Source: Caldibacillus debilis DSM 16016
Lineage (GTDB): Bacteria > Bacillota > Bacilli > Bacillales > Caldibacillaceae
Assembly: GCF_000383875.1 (NCBI RefSeq)
Contig: NZ_KB912880.1
Coordinates: 76,108 to 140,107 of the forward strand
Length of the DNA: 64,000 bases
Direction of reading: 5' to 3'
How positions within the stretch are numbered: position 1 is the first letter of the stretch; the number at the start of each line of letters is the position of its first letter. Below the pieces are notes generated by a model. That model was given only the letters and a program-made list of their open reading frames with translations, was not told where the DNA came from and did not search any database. A program made the translations under genes and the position numbers. Positions 17,094 to 45,595 of this stretch are shown here, piece by piece.

Positions 17094-17636
17094 ATGAATA
17101 ATAAAGAATTAGAAATTGCTAAATCCCTATTTAATTTGCAGCGAATAAGAATTTTACAAGCTGTAAAAGAAAAAGAAAAGACGGTAAAAGAAATTGCCGA
17201 AATTCTGAATGAAAAACCTTCCCGTCTCTATTATCATGTACACCAATTAGAGGATCTTGGATTATTGGAAGTTGTACGTGAAAAGCAAGTAGGAAATCTG
17301 ATTCAAAAATATTATAAATCAGTAGATAAAGACACATTCCCAGATGAGTTTACATTTACGGGTAAAGAGGCTTATGATAATGCTGACTACATAATTTCTC
17401 AACTTTACGCTTTCATCGATGAAGCACTTTCGAAAATTTACACAGATTTAAATAAAAAAGATTATAGAAAAGTTTCATCTGAAGCTAGTATTATAAATGT
17501 ACAATTAACAAAAGATGAATGGAGAGAGGTTAATAAAAAGATTAGAGAAGTTATTTCTACACGAAATAGTGAAGAAAAAGGTGTAAAAGAGTGGAATGTT
17601 AGATATATTATTATGAGTTATTTAGATGATTTATAG
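17094..17636 (+). CDS. HTH transcriptional regulator, ArsR/HTH_20-like
   Basis: Predicted DNA-binding regulator of 180 aa. A winged helix-turn-helix covers about residues 8-75 (RIRILQAVKEKEKTVKEIAE, then PSRLYYHVHQLEDLGLL), typical of ArsR-type regulators that relieve repression of an adjacent exporter. The C-terminal 100 residues are lysine- and glutamate-rich and not recognised. The ATG has GAGAGGGTGA upstream. Codon use is strongly AT-biased, unlike the flanking hem genes, indicating transfer. It converges on the MFS exporter gene, its likely target. An inverted repeat, ATACT and AGTAT at 16974-16992, lies in its upstream region. Confidence 0.85.
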   Translation: MNNKELEIAKSLFNLQRIRILQAVKEKEKTVKEIAEILNEKPSRLYYHVHQLEDLGLLEVVREKQVGNLIQKYYKSVDKDTFPDEFTFTGKEAYDNADYIISQLYAFIDEALSKIYTDLNKKDYRKVSSEASIINVQLTKDEWREVNKKIREVISTRNSEEKGVKEWNVRYIIMSYLDDL

Positions 17637-17650
17637 TTATATAACTCCAT

Positions 17651-17682
17651 AAAAAACTAAGCAGAAATCATATCTGCTTAGT
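17651..17682 (-). terminator. Terminator of the MFS gene
   Basis: ACTAAGCAGA at 17656-17665 and TCTGCTTAGT at 17673-17682 form a perfect 10-bp stem. On the minus strand it is followed by six T. The stem overlaps the stop codon of the MFS gene and may also stop the convergent regulator transcript. Confidence 0.8.
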
Positions 17683-18919
17683 CAGAAAAAAGATGTTTAT
17701 ATTCAAGTGCATCCGTTATAGGCAAATTTCTTAATGTAGGGATTAATAACCAATATATAGAAACGAATACCATGGCAATACTGCCAAAAATAAAGATAAT
17801 CCAACTGCCAATAAAAGGAGCCATTGTCCCTCCGGTTAAAGATCCTAATGGTGCAGCAATCGATGTTGCCCCCACAATAAAAGAGAAAACCCTTCCTAGT
17901 AAATCACTAGGTACATTTTTCTGCAGAGAAGATAGGAACAAGACATTTGTTATTCCTATTGCTATATAACTTCCTCCAAACAAAATAACAGAAAGTGAAT
18001 GAATATTGGTAATCCCTGCCAAAAACCAGCTTAATCCTGAACAGAAAAATCCGATAATGGTTACCTTACCTAAAGGAAATTGACTAAAAAACGAACTAAT
18101 TGTAGACCCCATCAATAACCCAAAAGACATTGCCGCCAAATACCATCCATAAATATCACTTCCCCCACGATTAACAGCGTATTCCGGTAATATGGCTGAT
18201 ACAGCCCCGATGATAAAATTTGCTAAAATTGAAGCTAACAAAAATTTGGGGATCAATGAACCTTTTATAAACTGGTATCCTTTTTTCAAATCCGCTTTAT
18301 AGTTTTCCCACTTATCTTTTAAAGAAAAGTCCCTTTCAAAATCCTTCTCTTCTAAATCTGTTTTCGGTATTTTTATGTAAAAAAACAAAAGCATGGCTAT
18401 AAAAAATGTTACTGAACCTAACATATAAACAAACACAGTTCCAATAAGTGCAATAATCGTTCCTGATATTCCTAATAAAATAACATCGAGTAGTTGATAG
18501 GTTGCATTCATTATTGAATTAGCTTCTGTTAAATATTTTTCTTCGACAATCGTCGGCAATATGGCTGCATGTGTCGGATAGACAAATTGCTGAATGATAG
18601 ATGCAATCGGATTAATAATCAGGACGAGCCAAACAGAAAGTACTCCCAAAAAGTGTGCAAGAGGAATTACTAGTAACAATATCGCTTGAATCATTTGCGT
18701 GTAAATAAGTATGGACTTGTATCTTTCTTGCTTAATCAACGGACCAATGAAAAATTGGAGGATTAATGGCGCCATCGTTAAAAAGCCGCCCAAACCAGTA
18801 TAGAAACTATTTTGCGTTAAATCATAAATCAACCACATCGATGCGACTGCATATAAACTATCCCCTATATTCGTAAAAATTCTTCCGGAAACCAAGAATG
18901 CGAAATTTTTATTCCACAC
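17678..18919 (-). CDS. MFS efflux transporter
   Basis: Twelve-helix major facilitator permease of 413 aa, probably a drug or metabolite exporter. The N-terminus FAFLVSGRIFTNIGDSLYAV has the helix-1 pattern of the macrolide-efflux-like MFS group. The helix 2-3 region and a cytosolic central loop rich in charged residues (about 185-215) follow. It starts at a GTG preceded by AAGGAGGG. The gene is AT-rich. Its own promoter lies on the minus strand at 18946-18974. The substrate cannot be told from sequence. The convergent HTH gene is a plausible regulator. Confidence 0.88.
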   Translation of the reverse strand: MWNKNFAFLVSGRIFTNIGDSLYAVASMWLIYDLTQNSFYTGLGGFLTMAPLILQFFIGPLIKQERYKSILIYTQMIQAILLLVIPLAHFLGVLSVWLVLIINPIASIIQQFVYPTHAAILPTIVEEKYLTEANSIMNATYQLLDVILLGISGTIIALIGTVFVYMLGSVTFFIAMLLFFYIKIPKTDLEEKDFERDFSLKDKWENYKADLKKGYQFIKGSLIPKFLLASILANFIIGAVSAILPEYAVNRGGSDIYGWYLAAMSFGLLMGSTISSFFSQFPLGKVTIIGFFCSGLSWFLAGITNIHSLSVILFGGSYIAIGITNVLFLSSLQKNVPSDLLGRVFSFIVGATSIAAPLGSLTGGTMAPFIGSWIIFIFGSIAMVFVSIYWLLIPTLRNLPITDALEYKHLFSD

Positions 18920-18945
18920 ACTATCCCTCCTTAATCACTAAAAAT

Positions 18946-18974
18946 ATTTTAACGAAAAACAAATTTTATTACAA
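18946..18974 (-). promoter_or_regulatory. Sigma-A promoter of the MFS gene
   Basis: On the minus strand, TTGTAA (18974-18969) and TAAAAT (18951-18946) are separated by 17 bases, about 27 bases before the start codon. Confidence 0.65.
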
Positions 18975-18984
18975 TGGATTGATT

Positions 18985-19314
18985 GACACTATTCAAACTT
19001 GTGTTTATTATTGACAAATACAGAAAATTCGTTTTTGAAGATAGGGCTTAAATGGATCCAATTTGCTTTTTTTTGTTTTCGCTTGGATTTGGAAGGGGGA
19101 TTGGGGGAGTGAATATATTTTCGGACGGTTTTCCGACCGATCCCCAATTCCCTCGCGATATCGGAAACTAATTCCCCTTTCATACATCTCTTTGATCATG
19201 AAAAATTCCCCTCTCGTAATCAAAAACCTAGCCCCTCTCATTTACACTATGGTTCTATTGTAAGTGGGGAATTTTATTCCGGCTATATTGGGGATTTTAT
19301 CACCGGCTTGAACA
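18985..19314 (-). mobile_element. Left-end remnant of a second IS21-family element
   Basis: Only one end survives. It carries ATTTTATCACCGGCTTGAACA at 19294-19314 and the CCCC-containing internal repeats seen in the first IS21 relic, plus the first part of istA on the minus strand. The istA remnant starts with ATG at 19199 (MIKEMYERGIS), shifts frame, then reads SDIARELGIGRKTVRKYI, the IstA helix-turn-helix. Everything beyond about 18985 is lost, which places the break directly beside the MFS promoter. Confidence 0.75.
18989..19199 (-). pseudogene. istA N-terminal fragment
   Basis: A frameshifted N-terminal fragment of an IS21 transposase. The helix-turn-helix ARELGIGRKTVRKYIHSPN is intact; the catalytic domain is missing. 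Confidence 0.7.
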
Positions 19315-19317
19315 AAC

Positions 19318-19646
<329 letters not shown>

Positions 19647-19912
19647 CCATATTTTCGATTACCGGAATTTGTTGCATTTATTATTGTAATTTAAGAAGGT
19701 GGATGGTAAATTTTAGAACAAGAAGAGATCCAAAGATGAAATATATAATAAATTGACAAAATTTGAAATTTCTTAAAAACTAATTAAGTTAAACCGAATA
19801 TTATAATAATTTGTAAGTCACTAGTACCTGGTCATCAATATAACGATTTATTATCTAATGTTTTGAGGATTGTTAATGATAATATGTTTGTCGAAATAAT
19901 GGAGTGAATATC

Positions 19913-20896
19913 ATGATTAGCTTCAAAAATGTAAGTTTTTCCTACAAGTCTTTTAAAAAGCAAGTTGGGATTCGTGGAACATTAAAGGATTTATTTAAGA
20001 GAGAACATGTAAACCATACTGCTTTAGAAAATATTACTTTTGAAGCAGAAAAAGGTGAGATTCTGGCTTTAGTAGGACCTAATGGAGCAGGAAAAACTAC
20101 ACTTATAAAATTATTAGTCGGATTGATAGAACCTTCAACGGGAAATATCGATGTACTTGGATTTAATCCTTATAAAAAGAGCAATAAATATTTATCACAG
20201 ATCGGTCTTGTAATGGGACAAAAAAGTCAGCTTACATGGGAATTACCGGCAATAGATACACTACATCTTATAAAGGCAATATATAGGATTGATTCTAAAG
20301 ATTTTACAGAGAGATTAAATTATTTTTTAAACCTGTTAAATTTGAAAGATAAGGTTGCTGTTCCTGTAAGGAAATTGTCTCTAGGAGAAAGGATGAAGTT
20401 TGAGCTAATAGCATCAGTAATCCATTATCCTAAATTACTTATTCTTGATGAACCTACAATTGGTTTAGATATTGAGAGTCAGAGAGCAATACATAAATTT
20501 TTGCTGCATTTAAATCAAACCGAGAAAACAACAATATTGATTACGAGCCATTATATGCGTGATATCGAAGCTTTGGCTAAAAGAATAATGATATTAATTA
20601 ACGGTCAAATTAAATACGATGGAGATATTAAACAATTAGTAAATACATTTAATAAGGGTAACACGATTATAGTAAAAACAAAGAGTGAACTTCCTGATGA
20701 AATACTGGGATATAAGATTAAAAGGGGTTCAGAAGAAAATAGTTGGGAGATATTGTTACAAGCAGGAGAATCTTATTATGAATTATTATCTTATCTTACT
20801 AATAATTTCCAGATTGAGAGTTTTCATATGAAAGAAACTCCATTTGAGGACATCATTTTCAATATCTTTACTGAAACGAAGGAGAGTTCAAGTTGA
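19913..20896 (+). CDS. ABC transporter ATP-binding protein, COG4586-like
   Basis: ATPase subunit (327 aa) of an ABC-2 type exporter. Walker A GPNGAGKT is at residues 55-62, the signature is LSLGE rather than LSGGQ, Walker B is LLILDEPTIGLD, and the switch histidine is in LITSHYMRD. The sequence around residues 20-36 (KDLFKREHVNHTALENITF) and MGQKSQLTWELPAIDT is characteristic of the COG4586 group, always paired with two DUF990-type permeases. The ATG at 19913 lies seven bases after GGAGTG; a GTG at 19904 overlaps that site. It is strongly AT-rich. The permease gene overlaps its stop codon. Confidence 0.9.
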   Translation: MISFKNVSFSYKSFKKQVGIRGTLKDLFKREHVNHTALENITFEAEKGEILALVGPNGAGKTTLIKLLVGLIEPSTGNIDVLGFNPYKKSNKYLSQIGLVMGQKSQLTWELPAIDTLHLIKAIYRIDSKDFTERLNYFLNLLNLKDKVAVPVRKLSLGERMKFELIASVIHYPKLLILDEPTIGLDIESQRAIHKFLLHLNQTEKTTILITSHYMRDIEALAKRIMILINGQIKYDGDIKQLVNTFNKGNTIIVKTKSELPDEILGYKIKRGSEENSWEILLQAGESYYELLSYLTNNFQIESFHMKETPFEDIIFNIFTETKESSS

Positions 20897-21672
20897 GTAA
20901 ATACTTATATGTTTTTAGAAACGAGATTTTACTAAATTTGACTTATAAAGGTAATATCATTTCGAGTTTTATTGTTCAAATAATTCAAATGATAACGACG
21001 GTTTTTGTGTGGAGAGCTTTATATTCGGGGGAGAATGATATTGGTAATTATAACATATCAGAAATGACTACTTATTTAATCTTAACATCCTTATTAAGTG
21101 TAATATTTTCTCCTAACAGTGCTTTTAGATTATCCAATCTTATTAGCAGCGGAAAACTTTCAATTTTATTAATAAGACCATACTCTTATTTTTTTGAAAG
21201 CTTTTCAGTTTTTTTAGGACAAAAAGTAGTTCAGATTTGTGTAGTATTCATCATGATTATTTGTTTTTTTATGTTAGGCTTATTTCAGTTTTCGTTTCCA
21301 AATATTGTTTCTATATTATTGGTTCTAACTAATTTCATTTTATTATTTATTTTTTTATCAGTTATGGGAGAATTAAGCTTTTGGTTAATTGAAATGTGGC
21401 CATTACGCCCAATTTATAATGGTTTACTCTCACTATTTGGGGGAGTAATGTTTCCTTTGGATTTACTCCCGGAAAGCATATTGAATATAATACAATTTAC
21501 ACCTTTCTCGCTCTTTGGTTATGTAAATACAAAAGCGATTATGGGAGAGTTGTCTACTGACGCAATGTTTAACTTCTTAATAGCTTCTATGTTATGGATA
21601 ATATTTTTCCAAATTATTTATATTATTTTATGGAAAAAGGGATTAAAGAAATACGAAGGAGTGGGAATATAA
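20893..21672 (+). CDS. ABC-2 type permease, COG4587-like
   Basis: Integral membrane subunit of 259 aa with six predicted helices. It starts at a TTG that overlaps the stop of the ATPase gene, with GGAGAG 7-12 bases upstream. The hydrophobic pattern and the region WPLRPIYNGLLSLFGGVMFP, a conserved Gly-rich stretch before the last helices, fit the DUF990/COG4587 permeases. It should form a heterodimer with the next gene product. Very AT-rich. Confidence 0.85.
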   Translation: MSKYLYVFRNEILLNLTYKGNIISSFIVQIIQMITTVFVWRALYSGENDIGNYNISEMTTYLILTSLLSVIFSPNSAFRLSNLISSGKLSILLIRPYSYFFESFSVFLGQKVVQICVVFIMIICFFMLGLFQFSFPNIVSILLVLTNFILLFIFLSVMGELSFWLIEMWPLRPIYNGLLSLFGGVMFPLDLLPESILNIIQFTPFSLFGYVNTKAIMGELSTDAMFNFLIASMLWIIFFQIIYIILWKKGLKKYEGVGI

Positions 21673-22448
21673 TGTTTTTCAATTACCTAAAAATTGTATG
21701 GAGTTTAAGTATTTCCCAATTTTTTATATATAGATTAACTTCTGTTTTCGTATGTTTTTTCGGTGTGTTATTTACAGCAATTGAAGTTATAACTCTTTTT
21801 GTCCTATATCATTATACAGACTCAATAAATGGTTGGGACTTTTATAGTTTTCTTACACTTTCTGCCACTTATACATTAATATCATATATTTATCAATTTT
21901 TCTTTACCCTATCTCATGAAAAATTAATAGATAAAATAGTAGAGGGAGATTTGGACTATGATCTAGTAAGGCCGATAGATTCGCAATTGATTAATAGTAT
22001 CAAACAATTGGATATTCCAAGTTTGATTAACATTGTTATCGCAATTGTATTACTCTGTTTTTCAGTTCCTCATGTATTAACTGGACATATTTTTGGAATA
22101 GTTATGTACATATTATTTGTATTGATGGGTGTTTACTTTTATTATTTAGTTAATCAATTTTTTATAAACTTTGCTTTTTGGATCGAACGGCCCTATCAAA
22201 TAGCAGCTATTCCTGAATATTTATTAGATATAGCAAGTCGTCCAAGGAATGTTTATCCTCCTATTTTACATGTGCTATTTGTATGGGTTTTTCCAATTCT
22301 ACTTAGTACAAATTTACCTGCTGAAATATTAAGAGGCGATTATAGTGTGGTTACATTAGTGTACTATTTATTTTTTATTATATTGTTTTCATTCTTAGTT
22401 AGAATACAGTGGAAACAAGCATTAAAGAAATATCAATCTGCAAATTAA
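21672..22448 (+). CDS. ABC-2 type permease, COG3694-like
   Basis: Second membrane subunit, 258 aa, six predicted helices. The ATG shares one base with the preceding stop (TAATG), so translation is coupled. The motif EGDLDYDLVRPIDSQ after helix 2 is the counterpart of SGKLSILLIRPYSYF in its partner and is typical of this permease pair. Near residue 155-160 FWIERPYQIAAIPEYLLD is conserved in COG3694. The exported substrate is unknown. Confidence 0.85.
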   Translation: MFFNYLKIVWSLSISQFFIYRLTSVFVCFFGVLFTAIEVITLFVLYHYTDSINGWDFYSFLTLSATYTLISYIYQFFFTLSHEKLIDKIVEGDLDYDLVRPIDSQLINSIKQLDIPSLINIVIAIVLLCFSVPHVLTGHIFGIVMYILFVLMGVYFYYLVNQFFINFAFWIERPYQIAAIPEYLLDIASRPRNVYPPILHVLFVWVFPILLSTNLPAEILRGDYSVVTLVYYLFFIILFSFLVRIQWKQALKKYQSAN

Positions 22449-33383: not shown

Positions 33384-35144
33384 CTATTCCCCCGGCTTCC
33401 GGTCGAGGAGGATCGGAAAGTCCACGTCCGTGATGACCGGCTCCTGGGATTTGATGTCGGAGTAAGTGTTGATGATTTCCGGATCGTAGACGATTTGCAG
33501 GCGGGACGGCCTCGTCCGCTGGCCTTCGACGCCTTCGTAGTAATCGTTGCTGTATTTCTGAGCATTTTCGAATCTTTGATTGCTCGCCCTGCCGCGGATG
33601 GCGTTCAAAACGATCTTGCGCGCCGATATTCCGCCTTCAATCCGGATATTGGATCCGACCCCGTACATTTCCAATTCCTTTTCCGAATAAAAGAATCCTT
33701 TGATCTGGCTTGGCTCATCTTGATAGAGACTGTTGTTTTGGATGTTGATTTTTCCGGTGGCGAAGATGATCAATGAACCTTCCCTTCCGTTCTTGTTCAA
33801 CCCGTTGATCCGGGAATATTCGATGAGGACATCCCCGTCAACGTACATGATGGAGTTGAACTGGGCGTCGGCCCCCCTGATGGTGACATCGCCGTCCACG
33901 AAGATGGGGCCGTCGATTTGGATCCGGTCATAATTGTTCGGATTAGAGGATGTGCTTCCGTTCCCGACCGTTAAATCCCCGCCGACATAGGCGCCGTTAA
34001 GAAAGGTGGTCTTTCCGAAGTTTTTATAGCTGTTTTTGATCTCGAGATCGCTGTTTGTCGCAAATCTTCCGAAGGTGTTATTTCCGTTGAACAGACAAGT
34101 ATTGGTGATGATCCAATTGCAATCCGCATAGATTTTTTTATCCGGATAAGATTCATTTTCGAAAGGCACGAAGGGCAGCCATTTTCTTATGACCGTTACC
34201 CCCGGAGAATTTTTCTCATACTTGAACGCATTCCGCTGCGAAGTGATGGGAATCGGTTCCCGGGACATCGCCCGCCTGACCAGCTTCGGGGCTTCGCCGG
34301 GGAAAAAGACGTCTTCGATCCGGTCCGTCTTCTTCGTGAAGCCGGCGCCGAAGTTGACGGTCTTGAGGTATTTATCGTAGTCGCCCGGGGTCTGATTCAA
34401 GGCGTAAACCTCCCCTCCCAAGACGAGCTGGGCCCGGTCCTTTCCGTCCGCCGGGCGGGCGCTCGGGTAAAGGGAATTGATCCAATATTCCCGTCCGTCC
34501 AAGACGGCCCGGGCCTTATTGCTTATAATAAGATTTCCGTCCACCTTCATGTCGCCGGTGATGGAGACGGCCCCGTGCAGGAACATGTTCCCTTCTCCCG
34601 GTTCACAGCCCCCCGTCCCGCCGCATGCCTTATTGGCGCCCAGCGCATATTGCAGCGGCTCCGGAACCGCTTGGGAGCCGACTTCAAAGGTGGCGGTCAT
34701 CTTCTTTTCCTCGCCGCTGGCGTTTCCGGTGCTGACAAAGGTGACTTTTTTCCGCAGGGGATTCGGTTCGCCGTTTGCATCCGTCACGTCTTCGATTTTT
34801 GTGATGCAGGCCGCATATTCGCCGGTCCGGTTCGCTTTCCGGATCCCGCTCCCGTCGCATTTGTAGGCGTTTAACGTTTGATTCAGCCGTTCGATGAATT
34901 CCGAACGGGGAAGCCCCTCCTCTCCCAGGGCTTCGTTCAGCTCCCGGTAGATCTGGTTGGTAAGATGGTCGATCCCCTTTGCCGACAGTTCCCTCGCCTG
35001 GACGATATTTTCCGATGTTTGGCTGCGCTTGACGCCGCTCAACGTGACGGACAACAGGGACAGGGCCAGGACGGCAAACAGCAAGGAGATGAACACGGTG
35101 ATCAAGAGCGCATAGCCGTCTTCCCGGCGGAACCGCGCATTCAT
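33384..35144 (-). CDS. PilX-like large pilus assembly protein
   Basis: Surface or pilus-tip component, 586 aa. It has a class III-like prepilin N-terminus: MNARFRREDG, then a 24-residue hydrophobic helix beginning YALLITVFIS. The usual Glu at +5 is replaced by Ile, as in PilX/GspK-type tip pilins. The large C-terminal part (about 190-500) alternates short beta-rich stretches such as GAVSITGDMKVDGNLIIS and DGPIFVDGDVTIRGA, resembling a beta-helix or polymer-forming repeat domain. It overlaps the preceding minor pilin gene by four bases and is the last gene of a three-gene operon. PilX naming rests on the N-terminus and context. Confidence 0.8.
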   Translation of the reverse strand: MNARFRREDGYALLITVFISLLFAVLALSLLSVTLSGVKRSQTSENIVQARELSAKGIDHLTNQIYRELNEALGEEGLPRSEFIERLNQTLNAYKCDGSGIRKANRTGEYAACITKIEDVTDANGEPNPLRKKVTFVSTGNASGEEKKMTATFEVGSQAVPEPLQYALGANKACGGTGGCEPGEGNMFLHGAVSITGDMKVDGNLIISNKARAVLDGREYWINSLYPSARPADGKDRAQLVLGGEVYALNQTPGDYDKYLKTVNFGAGFTKKTDRIEDVFFPGEAPKLVRRAMSREPIPITSQRNAFKYEKNSPGVTVIRKWLPFVPFENESYPDKKIYADCNWIITNTCLFNGNNTFGRFATNSDLEIKNSYKNFGKTTFLNGAYVGGDLTVGNGSTSSNPNNYDRIQIDGPIFVDGDVTIRGADAQFNSIMYVDGDVLIEYSRINGLNKNGREGSLIIFATGKINIQNNSLYQDEPSQIKGFFYSEKELEMYGVGSNIRIEGGISARKIVLNAIRGRASNQRFENAQKYSNDYYEGVEGQRTRPSRLQIVYDPEIINTYSDIKSQEPVITDVDFPILLDRKPGE

Positions 35145-35650
35145 TTTTCTCCCCCTTTCGTATCGTCGATCAAGCTGAGAATGCTCGTTAATTCCAAATG
35201 CTCCTCAAACTTTTTTGATTTCAGGCTCAACGTAATGCGGAATTTTCCGTCGCCCAGGCTTTCGGTCCGCGAATCCTCATCGAGGCGGACGCCGTCGTTC
35301 AAAGGCGGGAGCGCGCGGCCGTTCACCACCGCCTTTCCGTCGATGAAACCGGTCTTTTCCCCGTTTTTCTTTTGAAAATAGTAGTTGTTCGTCCCGCTTT
35401 CGGGCAAAGCCGTTTTTTCCACTTCGCTCGCCTTTAGGGTGAAGATCCCTTCGATGAAATTCGCCATGATGTAGTCGGCTTCATCCCGCAGTTTCGCCTC
35501 TTCCATCGACCGGCCGTACGCCTGGATTCCCCCGTACAGGACGGAAAAGACGACGAGCAGGATCACGGACATCAGCGCCAGGCTGGCGACGGTTTCGATG
35601 AGCGTGAGGCCTTCGTTATTTTCCCATCTTTTCCGGATCCTACGGTTCAT
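35141..35650 (-). CDS. Minor type IV prepilin
   Basis: Pilin-like protein of 169 aa. The leader MNRRIRKRWENNEG is followed by LTLIETVASLALMSVILLVV, with Glu at +5 of the mature protein, the signature of substrates of the prepilin peptidase. The ATG at 35650 has GGAGGGG ten bases upstream. It overlaps both operon neighbours by a few bases. The mature part is mainly polar and not further recognised. Confidence 0.85.
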   Translation of the reverse strand: MNRRIRKRWENNEGLTLIETVASLALMSVILLVVFSVLYGGIQAYGRSMEEAKLRDEADYIMANFIEGIFTLKASEVEKTALPESGTNNYYFQKKNGEKTGFIDGKAVVNGRALPPLNDGVRLDEDSRTESLGDGKFRITLSLKSKKFEEHLELTSILSLIDDTKGGEK

Positions 35651-36122
35651 AGCGGACAAACCCCTCCACCGTCGAAGTGATCCCCTTGTCTTCCAATCGG
35701 GCCTGGACGGCAACGTTGATCAGGTTGAGCCTGCGGTCGGACAAATCCTGGTAGACGTAGAGATAGATTTCGTAGGTTTTTCCGTTCACCAAGGGCAAAT
35801 AAAGGGTTTCGCAGTCCCGGAAGTTTTTAGCCTTGCAAACGTCGTAGGAATACACATACGGGTCGTCTTTCGTTTTCCCTGCATAGGGAGGCGGCGCCGC
35901 CGAATCGGGAGGATCGATATAGGATAAGGGATCGGCCTTGACCCGTTCCAGCGTCGCCTTGGCCAAATAGGTGCCGATCAGCTTGTCCTGGCTGGAATGG
36001 GCGGCCTTGTTCGTGAACACAAAGAGGTTGAAGAACGTCAACAAGAGCACCGACAGGATGAGGAGGGAGGCGACGACTTCCACGAGGGAGGCTCCGCCGG
36101 AATCCTTCATGAAATGATCCAT
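35640..36122 (-). CDS. Minor type IV prepilin (PilV-like)
   Basis: First gene of the minor pilin operon, 160 aa. The leader MDHFMKDSGG precedes ASLVEVVASLLILSVLLLTF, with Glu at +5. The ATG at 36122 follows AAAGGAG with good spacing. The C-terminal part is short and polar. Its promoter should lie in the divergent spacer that contains the palindrome at 36260. Confidence 0.85.
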   Translation of the reverse strand: MDHFMKDSGGASLVEVVASLLILSVLLLTFFNLFVFTNKAAHSSQDKLIGTYLAKATLERVKADPLSYIDPPDSAAPPPYAGKTKDDPYVYSYDVCKAKNFRDCETLYLPLVNGKTYEIYLYVYQDLSDRRLNLINVAVQARLEDKGITSTVEGFVRYEP

Positions 36123-36259
36123 GACTGGCAATCTCCTTTTCTCGGAAAAACAAACTCTTTCTTCGTCCGGTTTGTAAAATATGGCATAAAATTGAAAAAT
36201 CATCCAAAAAATAAATAAAAAGTCCCAGGAATGCGTTGCTATTCATTATTGTTATCATT

Positions 36260-39470: not shown

Positions 39471-40508
39471 ATGGCGTACCATATCTTGGATTTGCTGAGA
39501 AAGGCTTATGAGGAAAAAGCGTCGGATCTTCATCTGACCGTCGGTTCGCGGCCGATCCTCCGCGTCCACGGCCAATTGCGGGCCTTCGGGACCGAAGCCC
39601 TGACCCCTTTCGATACGGAGGAAATGGCGCGGCGTTTGGTTCCCGACGACCGGTGGGAAACCTTTCTGACCGAGCGGGAGATGGATTTGAATTTTCAGCT
39701 GGATGATGCGTGCCGCTTTCGGATCAATGTGTTCCATCAGCAAAATTACATCAGCCTCGCGATCCGGATGATCCCGACAAAGATCCCCACTTTGGAACAG
39801 TTGAACATGCCGCCGGTCATCGAAAAATTGTTGGTCAAACCCCAAGGGCTGATTTTGGTGACGGGACCGACCGGGTCGGGAAAATCGACGACTTTGGCGG
39901 CGATGATCGATTACATAAACGGGCGTTTTGCCAAACATATCATCACCCTGGAAGACCCGATCGAATATGTCCACGAACATAAGCGTTCGATCATCAACCA
40001 ACGGGAGGTCGGCAAGGATACGAAAAACTTTGCCAGCGGGCTCCGGGCCGCCCTCCGCCAGGATCCCGACGTCATTTTGGTGGGGGAAATGCGGGATTTG
40101 GAGACGATCGCAACGGCGGTCACCGCCGCGGAAACGGGCCACCTCGTTTTGGCCACCCTGCATACGGTGAGCGCCGCCCAAACGATCGACCGCATCATCG
40201 ACGTGTTCCCTCCCCATCAGCAGGGACAGATCCGGCTGCAGCTGGCGTCGGTCCTGCAGGGGGTCATCTCCCAGCGGTTGCTGCCGAAAAGGGGGTTGGA
40301 CGGCCGGATCGCGGCGACGGAAATCTTGGTCAATTATCCGTCGGTCGCCAATTTGATCCGGAACGGGAAAACCCACCAAATCCCGAACATCTTGCAGACG
40401 GGCAAAGCCCTCGGCATGCACACGCTGGAAATGTCGGTCCAATCCCTCCTTTCCAAAGGGGAGATCTCCGAGGAGACCGCAAAAGTCTACATCGGTGCAG
40501 GTGAATGA
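39471..40508 (+). CDS. pilT: Pilus retraction ATPase PilT
   Basis: Hexameric ATPase that depolymerises pili and powers twitching or uptake. The family start MAYHILDLLRKAYEEKASDL, Walker A GPTGSGKS, Asp box TLEDPIEYVHEH, Walker B VGEMRDLET, and a PilT-type C-terminus with the AIRNLIRE-like motif (here SVANLIRNGKTHQI) separate it from PilB. Length 345 aa is typical. It follows pilB by 12 bases and overlaps pilC by four. The B. subtilis com system has no PilT, so this machine differs from the ComG pseudopilus. Confidence 0.94.
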   Translation: MAYHILDLLRKAYEEKASDLHLTVGSRPILRVHGQLRAFGTEALTPFDTEEMARRLVPDDRWETFLTEREMDLNFQLDDACRFRINVFHQQNYISLAIRMIPTKIPTLEQLNMPPVIEKLLVKPQGLILVTGPTGSGKSTTLAAMIDYINGRFAKHIITLEDPIEYVHEHKRSIINQREVGKDTKNFASGLRAALRQDPDVILVGEMRDLETIATAVTAAETGHLVLATLHTVSAAQTIDRIIDVFPPHQQGQIRLQLASVLQGVISQRLLPKRGLDGRIAATEILVNYPSVANLIRNGKTHQIPNILQTGKALGMHTLEMSVQSLLSKGEISEETAKVYIGAGE

Positions 40509-41719
40509 TCGTGGCCGTTTACAAATATGTGGGCAGAACAAAAAAGGGGATGATGAAGAAGGGGACGATCGAAGCCGCGAACAAAAACCAGGCGATCAGC
40601 CGGCTCGTGGAGCAGGGCATCCGGCCGCGGGAAGTGACGGAAGCGAAGGGGCTGCTGTACCGGGAAGTGACGCTCGGGAGGCCGGTCAAACATCAGCACT
40701 TCGTCATCTATTGCCGCCAATTCGCCACCCTGATCCGGGCCGGGATCCCGATCGTGAAGGCGACGAATATTTTGGCCCGGCAGACGGAAAGCAAGCATTT
40801 GCGGAAGGTGCTGCTGCAGATCGAGGACGAACTGCGGTCCGGCCGCTCCTTTTCGGAGGCGGCGGAAAAGCATGCGAAGGTCTTTCCGCCGATGTTCACG
40901 AACATGATCCGGGCCGGGGAGGCGACCGGCAGCCTGGATGAAACCTTGGACCGGCTCGCCGCCCACTTCGAAAAGCAGTATTATACGGCGAAAAAAATCC
41001 AATCCGCCTTGACCTATCCGGTTTCGATCCTCATCATCATGATTTTCGTCGTCGTATTTCTCATGATTTTCATCGTGCCGCGGTTTACCGACATGTTCCG
41101 GCAGTTCGGCGCCGAACTGCCGCCGGTGACGAAAATGGTGATGGGAATGAGCCATGCCGTCGCCAATTACTGGTGGATCGGGCTGCTCGTGCTCCTTGCG
41201 GCAGCCGCGCTGTTCGGCTATTTCATGAAAAACAGCAAAAAATTCCATTACGGCGTCCATTGGTTCCTGCTTAGGATGCCGGTTTTCGGGAATTTGCTGC
41301 AAAAGGCGGCCATCGGCAGGACGGCCCGGACCCTGTCGTCCCTCGTTTCCAGTTCCGTCCCGATCTTGGAGGCCTTGACGATCACGGAAAGGGTCGCCGG
41401 AAATCCGGTGATCGGAAAAGTCATTTTGGAAGCGCGGGAAAGCCTGGCGAAGGGGAATCGGCTATCGGAACCTTTCGAAAAAAGCTGGGTGATGCCGCCG
41501 CTCGTGACCCAGATGATCGCCGTGGGCGAGCAGTCCGGTTCCCTTGACTTCATGTTGGGCAAGATCGCCGATTTTTACGAAGCGGAAGTCGACCGCACCG
41601 TCGATACGTTAAAATCCCTGATCGAGCCGGTGATGATCATCCTGCTCGCCGGCGTCGTCGGCACGATCGTCGCATCGATTATCATTCCCCTGTTCTCCAT
41701 CTATCAGCAAGTGTTATAG
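40505..41719 (+). CDS. pilC: Pilus inner-membrane platform protein PilC
   Basis: Polytopic platform protein that couples PilB/PilT to pilin movement. Two GspF domains (about 70-190 and 270-395) each carry the FCRQFATLIRAGIPI-type motif, here YCRQFATLIRAGIPIVKA and RTARTLSSLVSSSVPILEA. There are three membrane helices, at about 168-195, 218-240 and 372-398. Length 404 aa is normal. The start overlaps the pilT stop (ATGA). Confidence 0.95.
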   Translation: MIVAVYKYVGRTKKGMMKKGTIEAANKNQAISRLVEQGIRPREVTEAKGLLYREVTLGRPVKHQHFVIYCRQFATLIRAGIPIVKATNILARQTESKHLRKVLLQIEDELRSGRSFSEAAEKHAKVFPPMFTNMIRAGEATGSLDETLDRLAAHFEKQYYTAKKIQSALTYPVSILIIMIFVVVFLMIFIVPRFTDMFRQFGAELPPVTKMVMGMSHAVANYWWIGLLVLLAAAALFGYFMKNSKKFHYGVHWFLLRMPVFGNLLQKAAIGRTARTLSSLVSSSVPILEALTITERVAGNPVIGKVILEARESLAKGNRLSEPFEKSWVMPPLVTQMIAVGEQSGSLDFMLGKIADFYEAEVDRTVDTLKSLIEPVMIILLAGVVGTIVASIIIPLFSIYQQVL

Positions 41720-41817
41720 AAAAAAAATTTCCCTTCGGGGGGTGGTCCGACGGAAAAAAAGCCAGTCGTTCCTGAAATTTGGAACAGGAAAAAATCATGA
41801 TATGAGGAGGAAATGAT

Positions 41818-42285
41818 ATGATTCAAAAATGGAAGAAGCTGAAGAAGAACGAAAAAGGGTTGACGCTGATCGAGCTCCTGGCCGTGCTCGTCATTTTGGG
41901 CATCATCGCGGCGATTGTCATTCCGCTGATTGCAAATGTCATTAGCGATTCGCGGGATAAAGCGATTTTGGCGGATGCTTCGAACATTATTTCTGCCGCA
42001 AAACTTGCTCACGCTAACGGAGAAGGGACAGAGGATAATACTGCAGGAACAATAACTTTTAATAAGGACATATTAAGTAAATATATGGATAAAAAGGTTA
42101 AACTAGCAAACGATGATAAGGTAACTTATACAAAAAGCAGTGGAGAATGGACGATAAAATATAGTAATCTTAAAAAAATTAAAAATGAAGATCTTAAAAC
42201 CGGTTTAGGGATTAGTAATAATGATGATGAAACTACGGATGATCTGATTAATGACTACTTAGATGACAATGCTTTTACCAAATAA
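41818..42285 (+). CDS. pilA: Major type IV pilin, mosaic gene
   Basis: Prepilin of 155 aa. The leader MIQKWKKLKKNEKG is followed by LTLIELLAVLVILGIIAAIV, with Glu at +5 and a classic pilin helix. GAGGAGGAAATGAT gives a strong ribosome site, fitting a highly made subunit. The C-terminal half (from about codon 56) is rich in Lys, Asp and Asn and has no Cys pair. Its DNA is sharply AT-rich, while the leader-helix part has the GC-rich usage of its neighbours. The composition change continues to about 42365, just before the terminator. Confidence 0.92.
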   Translation: MIQKWKKLKKNEKGLTLIELLAVLVILGIIAAIVIPLIANVISDSRDKAILADASNIISAAKLAHANGEGTEDNTAGTITFNKDILSKYMDKKVKLANDDKVTYTKSSGEWTIKYSNLKKIKNEDLKTGLGISNNDDETTDDLINDYLDDNAFTK

Positions 42286-42371
42286 AGGAAATAATGGTGG
42301 TGGAGGAGGGGAATAATACACGAACCCTAACTATCCTATAATTCTTGCTTTATTTCAACATTCTCAACAAC

Positions 42372-42410
42372 CCCAGGCGCTCCCCGGCGCCTGGCCCCTC
42401 TCATTTTTTT
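42372..42410 (+). terminator. Terminator after the major pilin gene
   Basis: CCAGGCGC pairs with GCGCCTGG around CTCCCC-type loop bases at 42372-42393, followed by a stretch ending in seven T. It probably reduces transcription into pilMNO relative to pilA. Confidence 0.8.
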
Positions 42411-42505
42411 CGGGAAGGGGCCAAGCTTTGGCCTTTTCCCGAGGAAAATGAACGGTTCCCCCGGCGGAACCGGTTTTCATTTCGGCACAGGACGGTGAAC
42501 CAGCC

Positions 42506-43492
42506 ATGATCTTGAAAAAGAAAACCGTGAACCTGATCGTTGACGATTATGCCATCCGATGCGCGGAACAAAGGGGTTCCGGGCTCGAAGAGATCACCTT
42601 GATGGAAAAACCGGTCCCGGAAGGGATGGTGGAACAGGGCCGGATCGCCGACGAGATCGCCTTCTATGAATTTTTCAAAGGGACGGTCCAGGAATGGGGG
42701 ATCAAACGGAGGAAGGTCCGTTTCTGCGTCCCGGATTCCCTTGTGAGCATGAAAAAGGAGACGGTGCCCGAACATGTGAAAGAGAATGAACTTAAGGCCT
42801 ATTTCCATATGGAGATCGGGAACAGCATCTATCTCCCCTTTGAAAATCCGGCCTTCGACGTTTGCCTGTTGCCGGAAAGGGACGCGAACGACGGAAAGCG
42901 GAAGGCCCTGCTTTTTTCCGTCCCTCTGGAAGAATTGAACAAATACTCGGAGATCTTCATCGACGCGGGATTGAAACCGGTGCAGTGCGATATCCGCTCC
43001 CTGTCCGCCTACCGGTATTTTGCCGCCGTCGAGGGGGCGAAGCCGGGGAAAGTCTATTTGTTCCTCGAAGTCAATTTAAATTGGCTCGGGATCACCATTT
43101 TTTCCGATGACCTGCCCGAATTTATGCGCTATCAGGATTTGGACATCCCGTTGAAAAACTGGAGATGCGTCCCCGCCGGGGAAAATGCGTTCACTTGGGA
43201 ATATGCCGGGGATGAAACCTATCTGTCCGGGCTGTTGGAAGACCAGATGGTCGAATTGGAGCGGATCATGAATTTTTACCGTTATTCGATCCATAAAGGG
43301 AGGCGAACGGTAACGGGCATCATCCTGTACGGCGACTATCCGGATTTGGCGAAGGTCCGGGAACGGATCGAAGAGAACTTCACCCTTCCCGTCACGATTT
43401 TAAACGGCTATGCTTCCCCGGAAAAAATCGCTGCCCTGCCCCGTTCCTTCATTCCCGTCCTGGGGCTGGCCTTGAAAGGGGAGTCGTCATGA
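42506..43492 (+). CDS. pilM: Pilus assembly protein PilM
   Basis: Cytoplasmic actin-like protein that binds the N-terminus of PilN. The divergent PilM/FtsA-like fold is indicated by length (328 aa), the phosphate-loop-like start LIVDDYAIRCAEQRG, LKAYFHMEIGNSIYLPFENP and the late LPRSFIPVLGLAL. Its stop overlaps the pilN start (ATGA). The order pilM-pilN-pilO supports the call more than any single motif. Confidence 0.88.
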   Translation: MILKKKTVNLIVDDYAIRCAEQRGSGLEEITLMEKPVPEGMVEQGRIADEIAFYEFFKGTVQEWGIKRRKVRFCVPDSLVSMKKETVPEHVKENELKAYFHMEIGNSIYLPFENPAFDVCLLPERDANDGKRKALLFSVPLEELNKYSEIFIDAGLKPVQCDIRSLSAYRYFAAVEGAKPGKVYLFLEVNLNWLGITIFSDDLPEFMRYQDLDIPLKNWRCVPAGENAFTWEYAGDETYLSGLLEDQMVELERIMNFYRYSIHKGRRTVTGIILYGDYPDLAKVRERIEENFTLPVTILNGYASPEKIAALPRSFIPVLGLALKGESS

Positions 43493-44079
43493 TACCTGAT
43501 ATCAATCTCTTGCCCGAATTCGAGCGGGAGCGGCCGAAAACGAAGCTCATCTTCCTTCTTTTGGTCCTATTGTGGCTATTGCTCTTTGCCGGGCTGTGCT
43601 TGATCTATTGGCAAATGAAAAACGACAATGCCTTCTTGCGGACCGCGGAACAAAATTTAACCATGGAAAAAGCCGCCCTGGAAACGAAGCTGTCGCAAAA
43701 CGGCCAGCAGGAGGGCCCTTCCCTGGAAAATCTCGTGGCGTACGCGGAGGGCTTAACGGCGCCCGCCTCCCTTTTGATTGAACATTTAAAGGAGCTTTTG
43801 CCCGAGAACGGCTATCTCGTTCAGTACAGCTATAATGACGGCCAGCTGACGGTCGTCACGGATTTCGAAACGTTGACGGACCTGTCCGCCTATGTGGAGA
43901 AGCTGGGCGTCTCCGAATTCTTTTCCGATGTGAAAGTAAACGAGGTGAGCGCATTCCGGCTGGAAGAAGGCGAGGAGGAGCAGACGGATTTTGCCGTCGT
44001 CCCCCGCTATGAAGCGACGATCCAATTGAACGTGAACCGGGGGGCGCTGAAAAAGTCGGGAGGGGAACAGGGTGAATAG
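43489..44079 (+). CDS. pilN: Pilus assembly protein PilN
   Basis: Bitopic alignment-complex protein of 196 aa. The PilM-binding motif is at the N-terminus (MIPDINLLPEFER, matching the INLLP core). One membrane helix at about 22-44, a coiled-coil segment and a periplasmic-like alpha/beta domain follow. It overlaps pilM and pilO, indicating tight translational coupling. Confidence 0.93.
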   Translation: MIPDINLLPEFERERPKTKLIFLLLVLLWLLLFAGLCLIYWQMKNDNAFLRTAEQNLTMEKAALETKLSQNGQQEGPSLENLVAYAEGLTAPASLLIEHLKELLPENGYLVQYSYNDGQLTVVTDFETLTDLSAYVEKLGVSEFFSDVKVNEVSAFRLEEGEEEQTDFAVVPRYEATIQLNVNRGALKKSGGEQGE

Positions 44080-44809
44080 TTTTCTGGAAGAAAGGAAAAA
44101 ACTCGTCTATTTTATCCTCGTCATTCTTTTCTTGCTGCTCGTCCTCCTTTTCGTCCGCTTTATCCTCCCGCTGAAGGAAGAACAGGCGGCGAAGAAGGCG
44201 GAGGTAAACCGGCTGGAGCGGGAGATCGGGGCCCTGGAGGACCGGCTGGCCGAGCCGGAGGAAGGTTCCGCCGAAAACGAAGAACAATTGAAAAAACGGA
44301 TCCCGGATCGGCGGGCGATCGATCAATTGCTCCTTTCCGTGCAGGAGGCGGAATACGCCAGCAATAGCCAGGTGAACTCGATCAGCTTCACCAATTACGA
44401 CGGGGAGCCCGCAAGCGGCGAAACGGAAACCGCCCCTTCCCCCGGCGGCGGGGATGCGGAAACCGGCGGCAAAACGGAGGAAGGAGGCGCGGCGCAATCC
44501 GACGGTTCCGCCGGTGCGGAAGAGACCGCGGAAAGCCCGGAAGAAGGGACGGCGGAACCGGCCGATGGGCCGGCCTCCCTTCCGGACAAGCCGGAGAATT
44601 TAAAAACGATCACCTTCACCGTGGACGTCGTTTCCCCGGATTTCGACAGCCTGCTGAAATTTGTGAAGGAATTGGAAAAATTGGAACGAATCCATACAAT
44701 AGATACGGTCAGTTTTTCCCTGCCGGGGGAAAAGGAGCGGCTGACGGAGGAGGAAGCCGAAACCGTATCCGCGAAGATCCAGGCAACGACGTTTTACTAT
44801 CAACCTTGA
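44072..44809 (+). CDS. pilO: Pilus assembly protein PilO
   Basis: Partner of PilN, 245 aa. A GTG start follows GGGAGGGG and overlaps the pilN stop. One membrane helix (about 10-34) is followed by a coiled coil (about 38-75) and a C-terminal domain from about 170 (TFTVDVVSPDFDSLLKFVKE). Between them, residues 110-165 form a Gly/Glu/Ala/Pro low-complexity insert that is not typical of PilO. Confidence 0.88.
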   Translation: MNSFLEERKKLVYFILVILFLLLVLLFVRFILPLKEEQAAKKAEVNRLEREIGALEDRLAEPEEGSAENEEQLKKRIPDRRAIDQLLLSVQEAEYASNSQVNSISFTNYDGEPASGETETAPSPGGGDAETGGKTEEGGAAQSDGSAGAEETAESPEEGTAEPADGPASLPDKPENLKTITFTVDVVSPDFDSLLKFVKELEKLERIHTIDTVSFSLPGEKERLTEEEAETVSAKIQATTFYYQP

Positions 44810-44836: not shown

Positions 44837-45595
44837 ATGGAGTACATTTACGCAGTTTTCGTCCTGTTGTACGGCATGGTTTTCGGATCCTTTTTCAATG
44901 TCGTCGGCATGCGGACGGCCAAAGGGCAATCGGTCATCCGGCCCCGTTCCTCTTGCCCGGCCTGCCGCACCCCGTTGACGTGGAAAGAGCTCGTTCCCCT
45001 CTTTTCCTATCTTTTTTTAAGGGGCCGGTGCCGGACATGCGGCGCGAAGATTTCCTTCCTTTATCCCGCAACGGAGCTTTTGACGGGGCTCCTGTTTTCC
45101 CTGTCCTACCTGCAATTCGGTTTTTCCTGGGAGTGGCTGCAAGCCCTCGTTTTCCTTTCCTTATTGATGATCGTGACCGTTTCCGACCTGGATTCCATGA
45201 TCATCCCCAACCGGGTGTTGCTCGTTTTTTCCCTTTTGTTCCTCGTCATCCGGCTGGCCGACCCGCTCGTTCCGTGGTGGGATTCCTTGGCCGGTGCCCT
45301 TCTCGGCTTTTCCGTGCTGTATCTGTTGGCCGCCGTCACCCGGGGCGGCATGGGCGGCGGCGATATCAAGCTGTTTTTCGTCCTCGGCCTGTTTCTCGGG
45401 ACGAAAAAGGTATTGCTCACCCTGTTTTTTGCTTCCTTCCTCGGGACCCTTTTCGGACTGCTGTTGATCGCCTTGAAGAAATTCCGGCGAAAAAAACCGG
45501 TGCCCTTTGCCCCCTTTATCGGCGCGGGCGCTTGGATCGCCTATCTTTACGGCGACCGGCTGCTGGCATGGTATTTGTCCACATTTCTACAATGA
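44837..45595 (+). CDS. comC: Prepilin peptidase / N-methyltransferase (ComC/PilD)
   Basis: Aspartic peptidase of family A24 that cleaves prepilin leaders and methylates the new N-terminus. The zinc-binding CPAC and CRTC pairs are near residues 40-75. The catalytic aspartates are in VSDLDSMIIPN and GMGGGDIKLF. About eight membrane helices. Length 252 aa is standard. It is the last gene of the pilus cluster and sits in the comC position next to spoIIB, so it probably also processes ComG-type pseudopilins. Confidence 0.95.
   Translation: MEYIYAVFVLLYGMVFGSFFNVVGMRTAKGQSVIRPRSSCPACRTPLTWKELVPLFSYLFLRGRCRTCGAKISFLYPATELLTGLLFSLSYLQFGFSWEWLQALVFLSLLMIVTVSDLDSMIIPNRVLLVFSLLFLVIRLADPLVPWWDSLAGALLGFSVLYLLAAVTRGGMGGGDIKLFFVLGLFLGTKKVLLTLFFASFLGTLFGLLLIALKKFRRKKPVPFAPFIGAGAWIAYLYGDRLLAWYLSTFLQ

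Follow-up and report, generated by a model that had tools for sequence, protein, structure and literature searches.

An AT-rich, probably swappable head cassette in the type IV pilin gene of Caldibacillus debilis and its counterparts in other Bacilli

In Caldibacillus debilis DSM 16016, the type IV pilin gene pilA changes from host-like to strongly AT-rich codon usage within its own coding sequence. We consider it likely, with a probability of roughly 0.8, that the 3' part of this gene is a swappable cassette for the pilin head within an otherwise core gene, and that its AT-richness is a standing property found across Bacilli and not the scar of a single import. The unusual composition appears to be the signature of an exchangeable module, not of one recent import. 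Low GC content in part of a surface gene need not, therefore, point to recent import, and in the surveyed Bacilli such a composition belongs to the swappable module. The exchange of pilin heads described below suggests a candidate mechanism for varying the pili of Gram-positive bacteria, perhaps as a defence against phages.

The pilin locus and its composition switch

The window, i.e. the whole stretch of 64,000 nucleotides that was analysed, contains a type IV pilus locus (Table 1). pilA sits between pilC and pilM, and Pfam matches place pilN, pilO and a prepilin peptidase gene in the same cluster. The pilA product carries the prepilin motif and the hydrophobic N-terminal helix by which type IV pilins are recognized, and scores 27.8 bits against TIGR02532 (cut-off 16.3). 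A profile constructed from 41 pilins matches PilE1 of S. sanguinis (8pfb, E 4.7e-15). Based on these matches, pilA encodes a type IV pilin that is probably the major subunit.

An AlphaFold2 model of the product (mean pLDDT 88) has a single long helix at residues 17-66 and a head at residues 67-155; the AT-rich part is thus predicted to span the end of the helix and the entire head. The best VIA-align match of this model is C. difficile PilA1, with a Z of 4.7 that is low and not decisive (rmsd 3.7-3.8, 91 residues aligned), followed by T. thermophilus PilA4 (Z 4.3) and the PAK pilin (Z 3.5). Foldseek against the PDB returned nothing below E 1. Gram-positive pilins are matched both by the family profile (PilE1) and, at low Z, by the model (PilA1).

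Table 1. Features of the pilA region, in window coordinates.
Feature	Coordinates	Strand	Evidence
pilC (T2SSF), GC-rich 5' flank, GC3 0.77	40505..41719	+	Pfam PF00482, E 1.4e-68
pilA, probable major type IV pilin, 155 aa	41818..42285	+	Pfam N_methyl PF07963, E 3.4e-08
pilA codons 1-58, leader and most of N-terminal helix, host-like codons	41818..41991	+	GC3 0.64
AT-rich cassette, helix end and head (residues 67-155)	41992..42285	+	GC3 0.21; AlphaFold2 model
AT-rich 3' spacer, GC 0.37	42286..42371	+	base composition
GC-rich stem-loop of 9 bp, terminator-like, T run from 42404	42373..42394	+	folding
pilM, GC-rich 3' flank	42506..43492	+	Pfam PF11104, E 8e-12
pilN (43489-44079) and pilO (44072-44809)	43489..44809	+	Pfam PF05137, PF04350
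Prepilin peptidase	44837..45595	+	Pfam PF06750, PF01478

In sliding windows of 200 nt, as proposed in an earlier note on this DNA, GC content is 0.57 in late pilC, drops to 0.29 at 42000-42299 and is back at 0.525 at 42300-42499. Expected GC3 was derived from the amino acid-specific codon usage of the 308,548-base contig. With amino acids controlled in this way, codons 1-58 of pilA have a GC3 of 0.64 against 0.66 expected (z -0.2), and codons 59-155 have 0.21 against 0.61 (z -8.6). The same note had claimed a change from GC-rich to AT-rich usage near codon 56. The change itself is real, but its edge is less sharp than claimed, as the change in GC3 is placed best at codon 37 and almost equally well at codon 56 (log-likelihood gains of 16.2 and 15.8). 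A return of the composition just before the terminator, also claimed, is borne out: the spacer is still AT-rich, and GC content is regained near the stem-loop, about 90 nt beyond the pilA stop codon. The stem-loop region (42360-42420) has a minimum free energy of -26.8 kcal/mol (z -2.9); a consensus terminator scan did not list the stem-loop, and an Rfam scan of 41600-42700 gave no match.

Amino acid content is ruled out as the cause of the AT-richness, because the amino acid-based expectation is 0.61 for the window cassette and 0.57 for the cassettes of 57 GC-rich loci (see below). The bias in pilA is strong, but it is not unique in the contig. When ranked by the lowest segment of 95 codons, pilA comes eighth among 255 crudely called ORFs, some of which are surely spurious. 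Four of the seven more extreme ORFs sit in an AT-rich cluster at 17094-22448 of the window, which encodes an ArsR-like regulator, an MFS transporter, an ABC transporter ATPase and an ABC-2 permease.

AT-rich pilin 3' parts across Bacilli

pilC-pilA loci were collected in two surveys, a first one with 133 of 136 loci and a larger one with 172 of 175, of which 153, including that of the window, are non-redundant. L012, L034 and L107 were left out of both; the 153-locus set retains L124, the second locus of the genome that carries L017. From one search with 80 loci, the first 20 were surveyed (L021-L040, Bacilli) and L041-L100 were left out. An order-level search matched 274 of 397 genomes, and 30 plus 60 loci from it were used, all of them best matches to a Geobacillus pilin; the sample therefore leans towards such matches, and two genera are strongly represented in its GC-rich set. 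For all loci, the cassette was taken to begin with codon 50 after the prepilin glycine and to include everything up to the stop codon, and the 5' part was taken as the first 45 codons.

The loci are not phylogenetically independent. The cassette has a lower GC3 than pilC in 151 of 153 (the exceptions are L035 and L125) and a lower GC3 than the 5' part of its own gene in 141. Among the 57 loci with a pilC GC3 above 0.5, the cassette lies below the 5' part in 56, by a mean of 0.26 for the set. Regressed on pilC GC3, the 5' part has a slope of 0.86 and the cassette one of 0.28; the 5' part tracks the composition of the host, the cassette barely does. When amino acids are controlled, cassettes of the 57 GC-rich loci have a GC3 of 0.25 against 0.57 expected, with a deficit in every one of them, and their 5' parts have 0.51 against 0.60. 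Thus, an AT-rich pilin 3' half is not particular to the window strain, whose cassette has the 11th lowest residual of the 153 loci, low but no outlier.

Block exchange of the cassette between relatives

Close pairs of loci were prefiltered by common 14-mers in pilC. With L017/L124 taken out of 30 pairs, 29 remain in which pilC is at least 90% identical. In 23 of these the cassettes are less than 60% identical at the nucleotide level, and when the 29 pairs are grouped into 17 clusters, a swap is found in 15. In 20 of the 29 pairs the cassette exceeds pilC in synonymous difference (p<0.01), in 1 it falls significantly below pilC, and in 8 the two do not differ significantly. For example, L160 and L162 differ at 23 of 378 synonymous sites in pilC and at 27 of 49 in the cassette. 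The identity profiles of L160/L162, L135/L138, L029/L031 and L011/L186 stay mostly at 85-100% in the flanks, drop inside pilA and are regained directly after it. In the 23 swapped pairs, identity is 0.96 at helix codon 16, has dropped to about 0.5 by codon 64 and is regained about 40 nt past the stop codon; along these codons the GC3 of the GC-rich set declines too, and GC content is regained over the same spacer. Identity per 8-codon bin follows the GC3 of the GC-rich set (Spearman 0.84, 16 bins), although only the edges of the curve are informative, because the 23 pairs were picked for low cassette identity.

Exchange can also be read in the opposite direction. L113 and L135 share a cassette with 99% protein identity and no differences at 110 synonymous sites, but differ at 82 of 358 sites in pilC; by this comparison, a nearly identical cassette on a diverged pilC is the product of transfer. 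As read from these alignments, the comparisons show that block replacement in the relatives has affected the 3' part of pilA and has left the helix codons and the flanking pilC and pilM genes in place. In a further pair from two species, L234/L235, the cassettes are 85% identical in protein and differ at 9 of 71 synonymous sites, with 163 of 355 in pilC, and a cassette transfer is likely here as well.

Fast point substitution under positive selection, with no recombination, might also lead to diverged heads on conserved helices. Surface exposure of the head is to be presumed, and a significant synonymous excess in the cassette is missing from 9 of the 29 close pairs. However, the far greater synonymous difference of the cassette in the other 20, the sharp edges of the diverged block, and the nearly identical cassettes of L113 and L135 beside differing flanks make substitution alone highly improbable.

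In the relatives, the stretch that is replaced between close species begins at roughly helix codon 30-60 and ends some 40 nt beyond the stop codon. Incoming DNA would be anchored by pairing at the conserved helix codons and on the pilM side, and exchange within these two anchors would bring in another head without touching the part that forms the core of the filament. The pilA gene of the window would have been shaped by the same process at some time.

Relatives and possible donors of the window cassette

The sample of relatives comprises 8 genomes of the window's family, none of them another member of its genus. In a BLAST search among the non-redundant cassettes, two homologues of the window cassette were found, one in L002, which belongs to a sister genus, G001 (protein identity 43%, E 2.8e-15), and a weaker one in L013 (36%). 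The nearest relative of the cassette is in the sister genus, at 43-46% protein identity, and this genus is AT-rich (pilC GC 0.41). For pilC of the window, the nearest sequence is that of L021, an Aeribacillus composti record (69%), and five loci of its own family (L002, L003, L004, L005 and L008) are 64-66% identical; of these five, L002 alone gave a cassette match. This pattern of matches would fit exchange or uneven loss, and it dates nothing. Because the window cassette is homologous to that of G001, it may also have arisen by plain descent and fast divergence.

The earlier note regarded pilA as a mosaic with an apparently imported surface-exposed part, a likely outcome of recombination under phage or immune-type selection. 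If this import was a single event, an AT-rich donor would have supplied the head half of this strain, and its low GC content would be unameliorated donor composition. In support of such a one-off import, the GC3 of the window cassette is far below expectation and low even for its host, the nearest cassette relative is in an AT-rich genus, and swaps are common in relatives. The deficit is present in all 57 GC-rich loci, however, and composition therefore cannot single out an import. G001 is also no recent donor, given the low protein identity and synonymous differences at 21 of 38 sites in the cassette and 156 of 247 in pilC. The note had further proposed a search for the donor of the C-terminal half, and none was found at E 0.01 among 72,556 plasmid and 50,697 phage records. 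We therefore regard a single import as unlikely. Recombination of the kind proposed is supported by the block replacement seen in relatives; AT-richness as evidence of import is not, since AT-rich cassettes are found in 151 of the 153 loci.

Standing composition or import scar

In several relatives, a homologous cassette has diverged at synonymous sites about as far as pilC has. L116 and L215 differ at 12 of 79 synonymous sites in the cassette and at 60 of 376 in pilC, L128 and L141 at 26 of 59 and 164 of 362, and L117 and L119 at 29 of 66 and 134 of 364. The cassettes have a GC3 of 0.26 and 0.21, 0.16 and 0.18, and 0.22 and 0.21, respectively. AT-richness is thus kept where the cassette has diverged about as much as the flanks, which argues for a standing property of the module and against a mark of the donor. 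A shared AT-rich half with flank-like synonymous divergence is the observation that the earlier note had set against its own mosaic, and it is present in several relatives, such as L116/L215 and L128/L141. A standing property is the favoured, not proven, reading.

Amelioration was estimated for 15 pairs. If the cassettes were relaxing towards the composition of their hosts, nine of these pairs, which share genomes, would require an ancestral GC3 no higher than 0.11 (upper bounds 0.02-0.25): L025/L109, L117/L119, L117/L122, L119/L122, L128/L141, L116/L216, L215/L216, L033/L126 and L123/L151. For L116/L216 and L215/L216, where the cassette is of more recent origin than pilC, the clock taken from the flank makes the conflict with import look stronger than it is. 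For L116/L215, L138/L139 and L038/L039, the ancestral GC3 is estimated at 0.14-0.22 (upper bounds 0.26-0.39), and for L027/L030 at 0.34, which is compatible with import. L151/L226, with a saturated flank that makes its value meaningless, and L234/L235, with a cassette much younger than the flank, are uninformative. The lowest cassette GC3 in any host is 0.07 (L021), and import is therefore disfavoured.

Among 36 GC-rich loci with at least 3 near relatives, unmatched cassettes have a GC3 of 0.18 (n=8) and shared ones of 0.24 (n=21). This trend (rho 0.31, p 0.064; 0.18, p 0.30 when corrected for host GC3) is weak, and in the direction expected of import followed by slow amelioration. As a source of the AT-richness, import with slow amelioration is disfavoured.

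Possible causes of the AT-richness

Selection for AT-ending codons, or for weak mRNA structure, might keep the cassette AT-rich, and the AT-richness does look stationary in several lineages. In the same genome, however, a stretch of ribosomal-protein genes has a GC3 of 0.60 (pilB, pilT and pilC together, 0.76) and uses mostly ATC for isoleucine, with ATC, ATT and ATA counts of 46, 22 and 2 against 0, 3 and 3 in the window cassette. Translational preference is thus probably not the cause. AT-richness is also absent from the 5' part of the same transcript, and a similar drop is found in the middle of Geobacillus flagellin genes. Taken together, selection on codons or mRNA is quite unlikely. A raised mutation rate is weakly disfavoured, as shared cassettes (e.g., L116/L215) show flank-like synonymous divergence.

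Five loci contain a second pilin gene, the 3' part of which has a GC3 of 0.51-0.63 (0.59 in L027, L028 and L030); the pilin fold itself is thereby ruled out as a cause. The C-terminal parts of the second pilins are 97-99% identical among the Geobacillus loci L027, L028 and L030, 81% identical to that of L033 and 53-55% to that of L025. The cassettes of L027, L028 and L030 have protein identities of 48-58%.

A flagellin control was carried out in one genus, Geobacillus, with 30 loci, of which 5 had no ORF, 2 were cut and 13 lacked a complete middle of at least 30 codons. GC3 is lower in the middle than in the N part in all 10 usable genes, and lower than in the C part in 8 of the 10 (means of 0.54, 0.37 and 0.50 for N part, middle and C part). 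AT-richness seems to go with hypervariable blocks. The flagellins of this set (L258-L287) range in length from about 240 to over 600 aa.

A tentative explanation, which we consider more doubtful than credible, is that the cassette is too diverged for internal recombination. GC-biased conversion, or some other recombination-dependent gain of GC, would then act on the helix codons and flanks alone, and synonymous sites in the cassette would lie near an AT-biased mutational equilibrium. According to PMC4450053, GC and/or GC3 is raised in recombinant core genes in 11 of 14 groups; exceptions are Helicobacter pylori and, in overall GC only, the Bacillus anthracis/cereus group. Core coding DNA is higher in GC than accessory DNA according to PMC5303225. 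In contrast to such work on AT-rich accessory genes and GC-biased conversion, the difference here lies inside one gene. The two halves of pilA share strand, location and presumably transcript and expression, and differ in exchange and GC3, so the AT-richness of accessory DNA becomes testable in a single gene. If conversion were the cause, one gene would provide a within-transcript control for why accessory DNA has this composition.

Relation to known pilin variation

Exchange of pilin heads is itself known. In Pseudomonas aeruginosa, the major pilin is subject to allele-like replacement at a fixed locus; here, it is the 3' part and a short spacer that are replaced. In Neisseria, where pilE undergoes antigenic variation and class exchange, this gene likewise has a conserved N-terminal helix and a variable C-terminal part that is changed by recombination, as described in PMC4023411, the main text of which does not contain the term 'GC content'. 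Unlike pilE variation, the exchange described here is seen between species. PMC3244431, a survey of Gram-positive type IV pili, lists Geobacillus genomes, and its retrieved text contains neither 'variab' nor 'GC content'. An AT-rich swapped pilin half in Bacilli was not found among titles and the beginnings of abstracts, in a search with subscription journals mostly outside its scope.

The layout of a conserved 5' and a variable 3' part might point to a dedicated generator of diversity, such as silent copies of the kind that pilE variation uses or a diversity-generating retroelement. The genome of the window strain (95% complete, 40 contigs) contains no second or silent pilin copy, however; the whole pilin and the cassette gave one match each, and N_methyl genes number five in all. 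We regard a dedicated generator as extremely improbable.

Further observations

In L017 (genome G016), two pilin genes follow pilC, and more pilin matches are found elsewhere in that genome. Outside the window, at G000:C2:297342-298559, three more N_methyl matches lie together and perhaps form a competence pilus cluster. On the minus strand of the window, three adjacent ORFs at 33384-36203 read like minor pilins or pilus-tip proteins. One of them (35141-35713) contains an N_methyl match at about 35546-35620, and another (35640-36203) matched no Pfam family.

At the end of pilA, a short open stretch in the +1 frame (42269-42316) encodes a glycine-rich tail (MLLPNKGNNGGGGGE, followed by a stop codon). 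The tail of the L002 sister pilin is longer than that of the window pilin, which may therefore have been shortened by a slip of 1 nt in the T run, real or introduced in assembly. The short open stretch may equally be due to chance.
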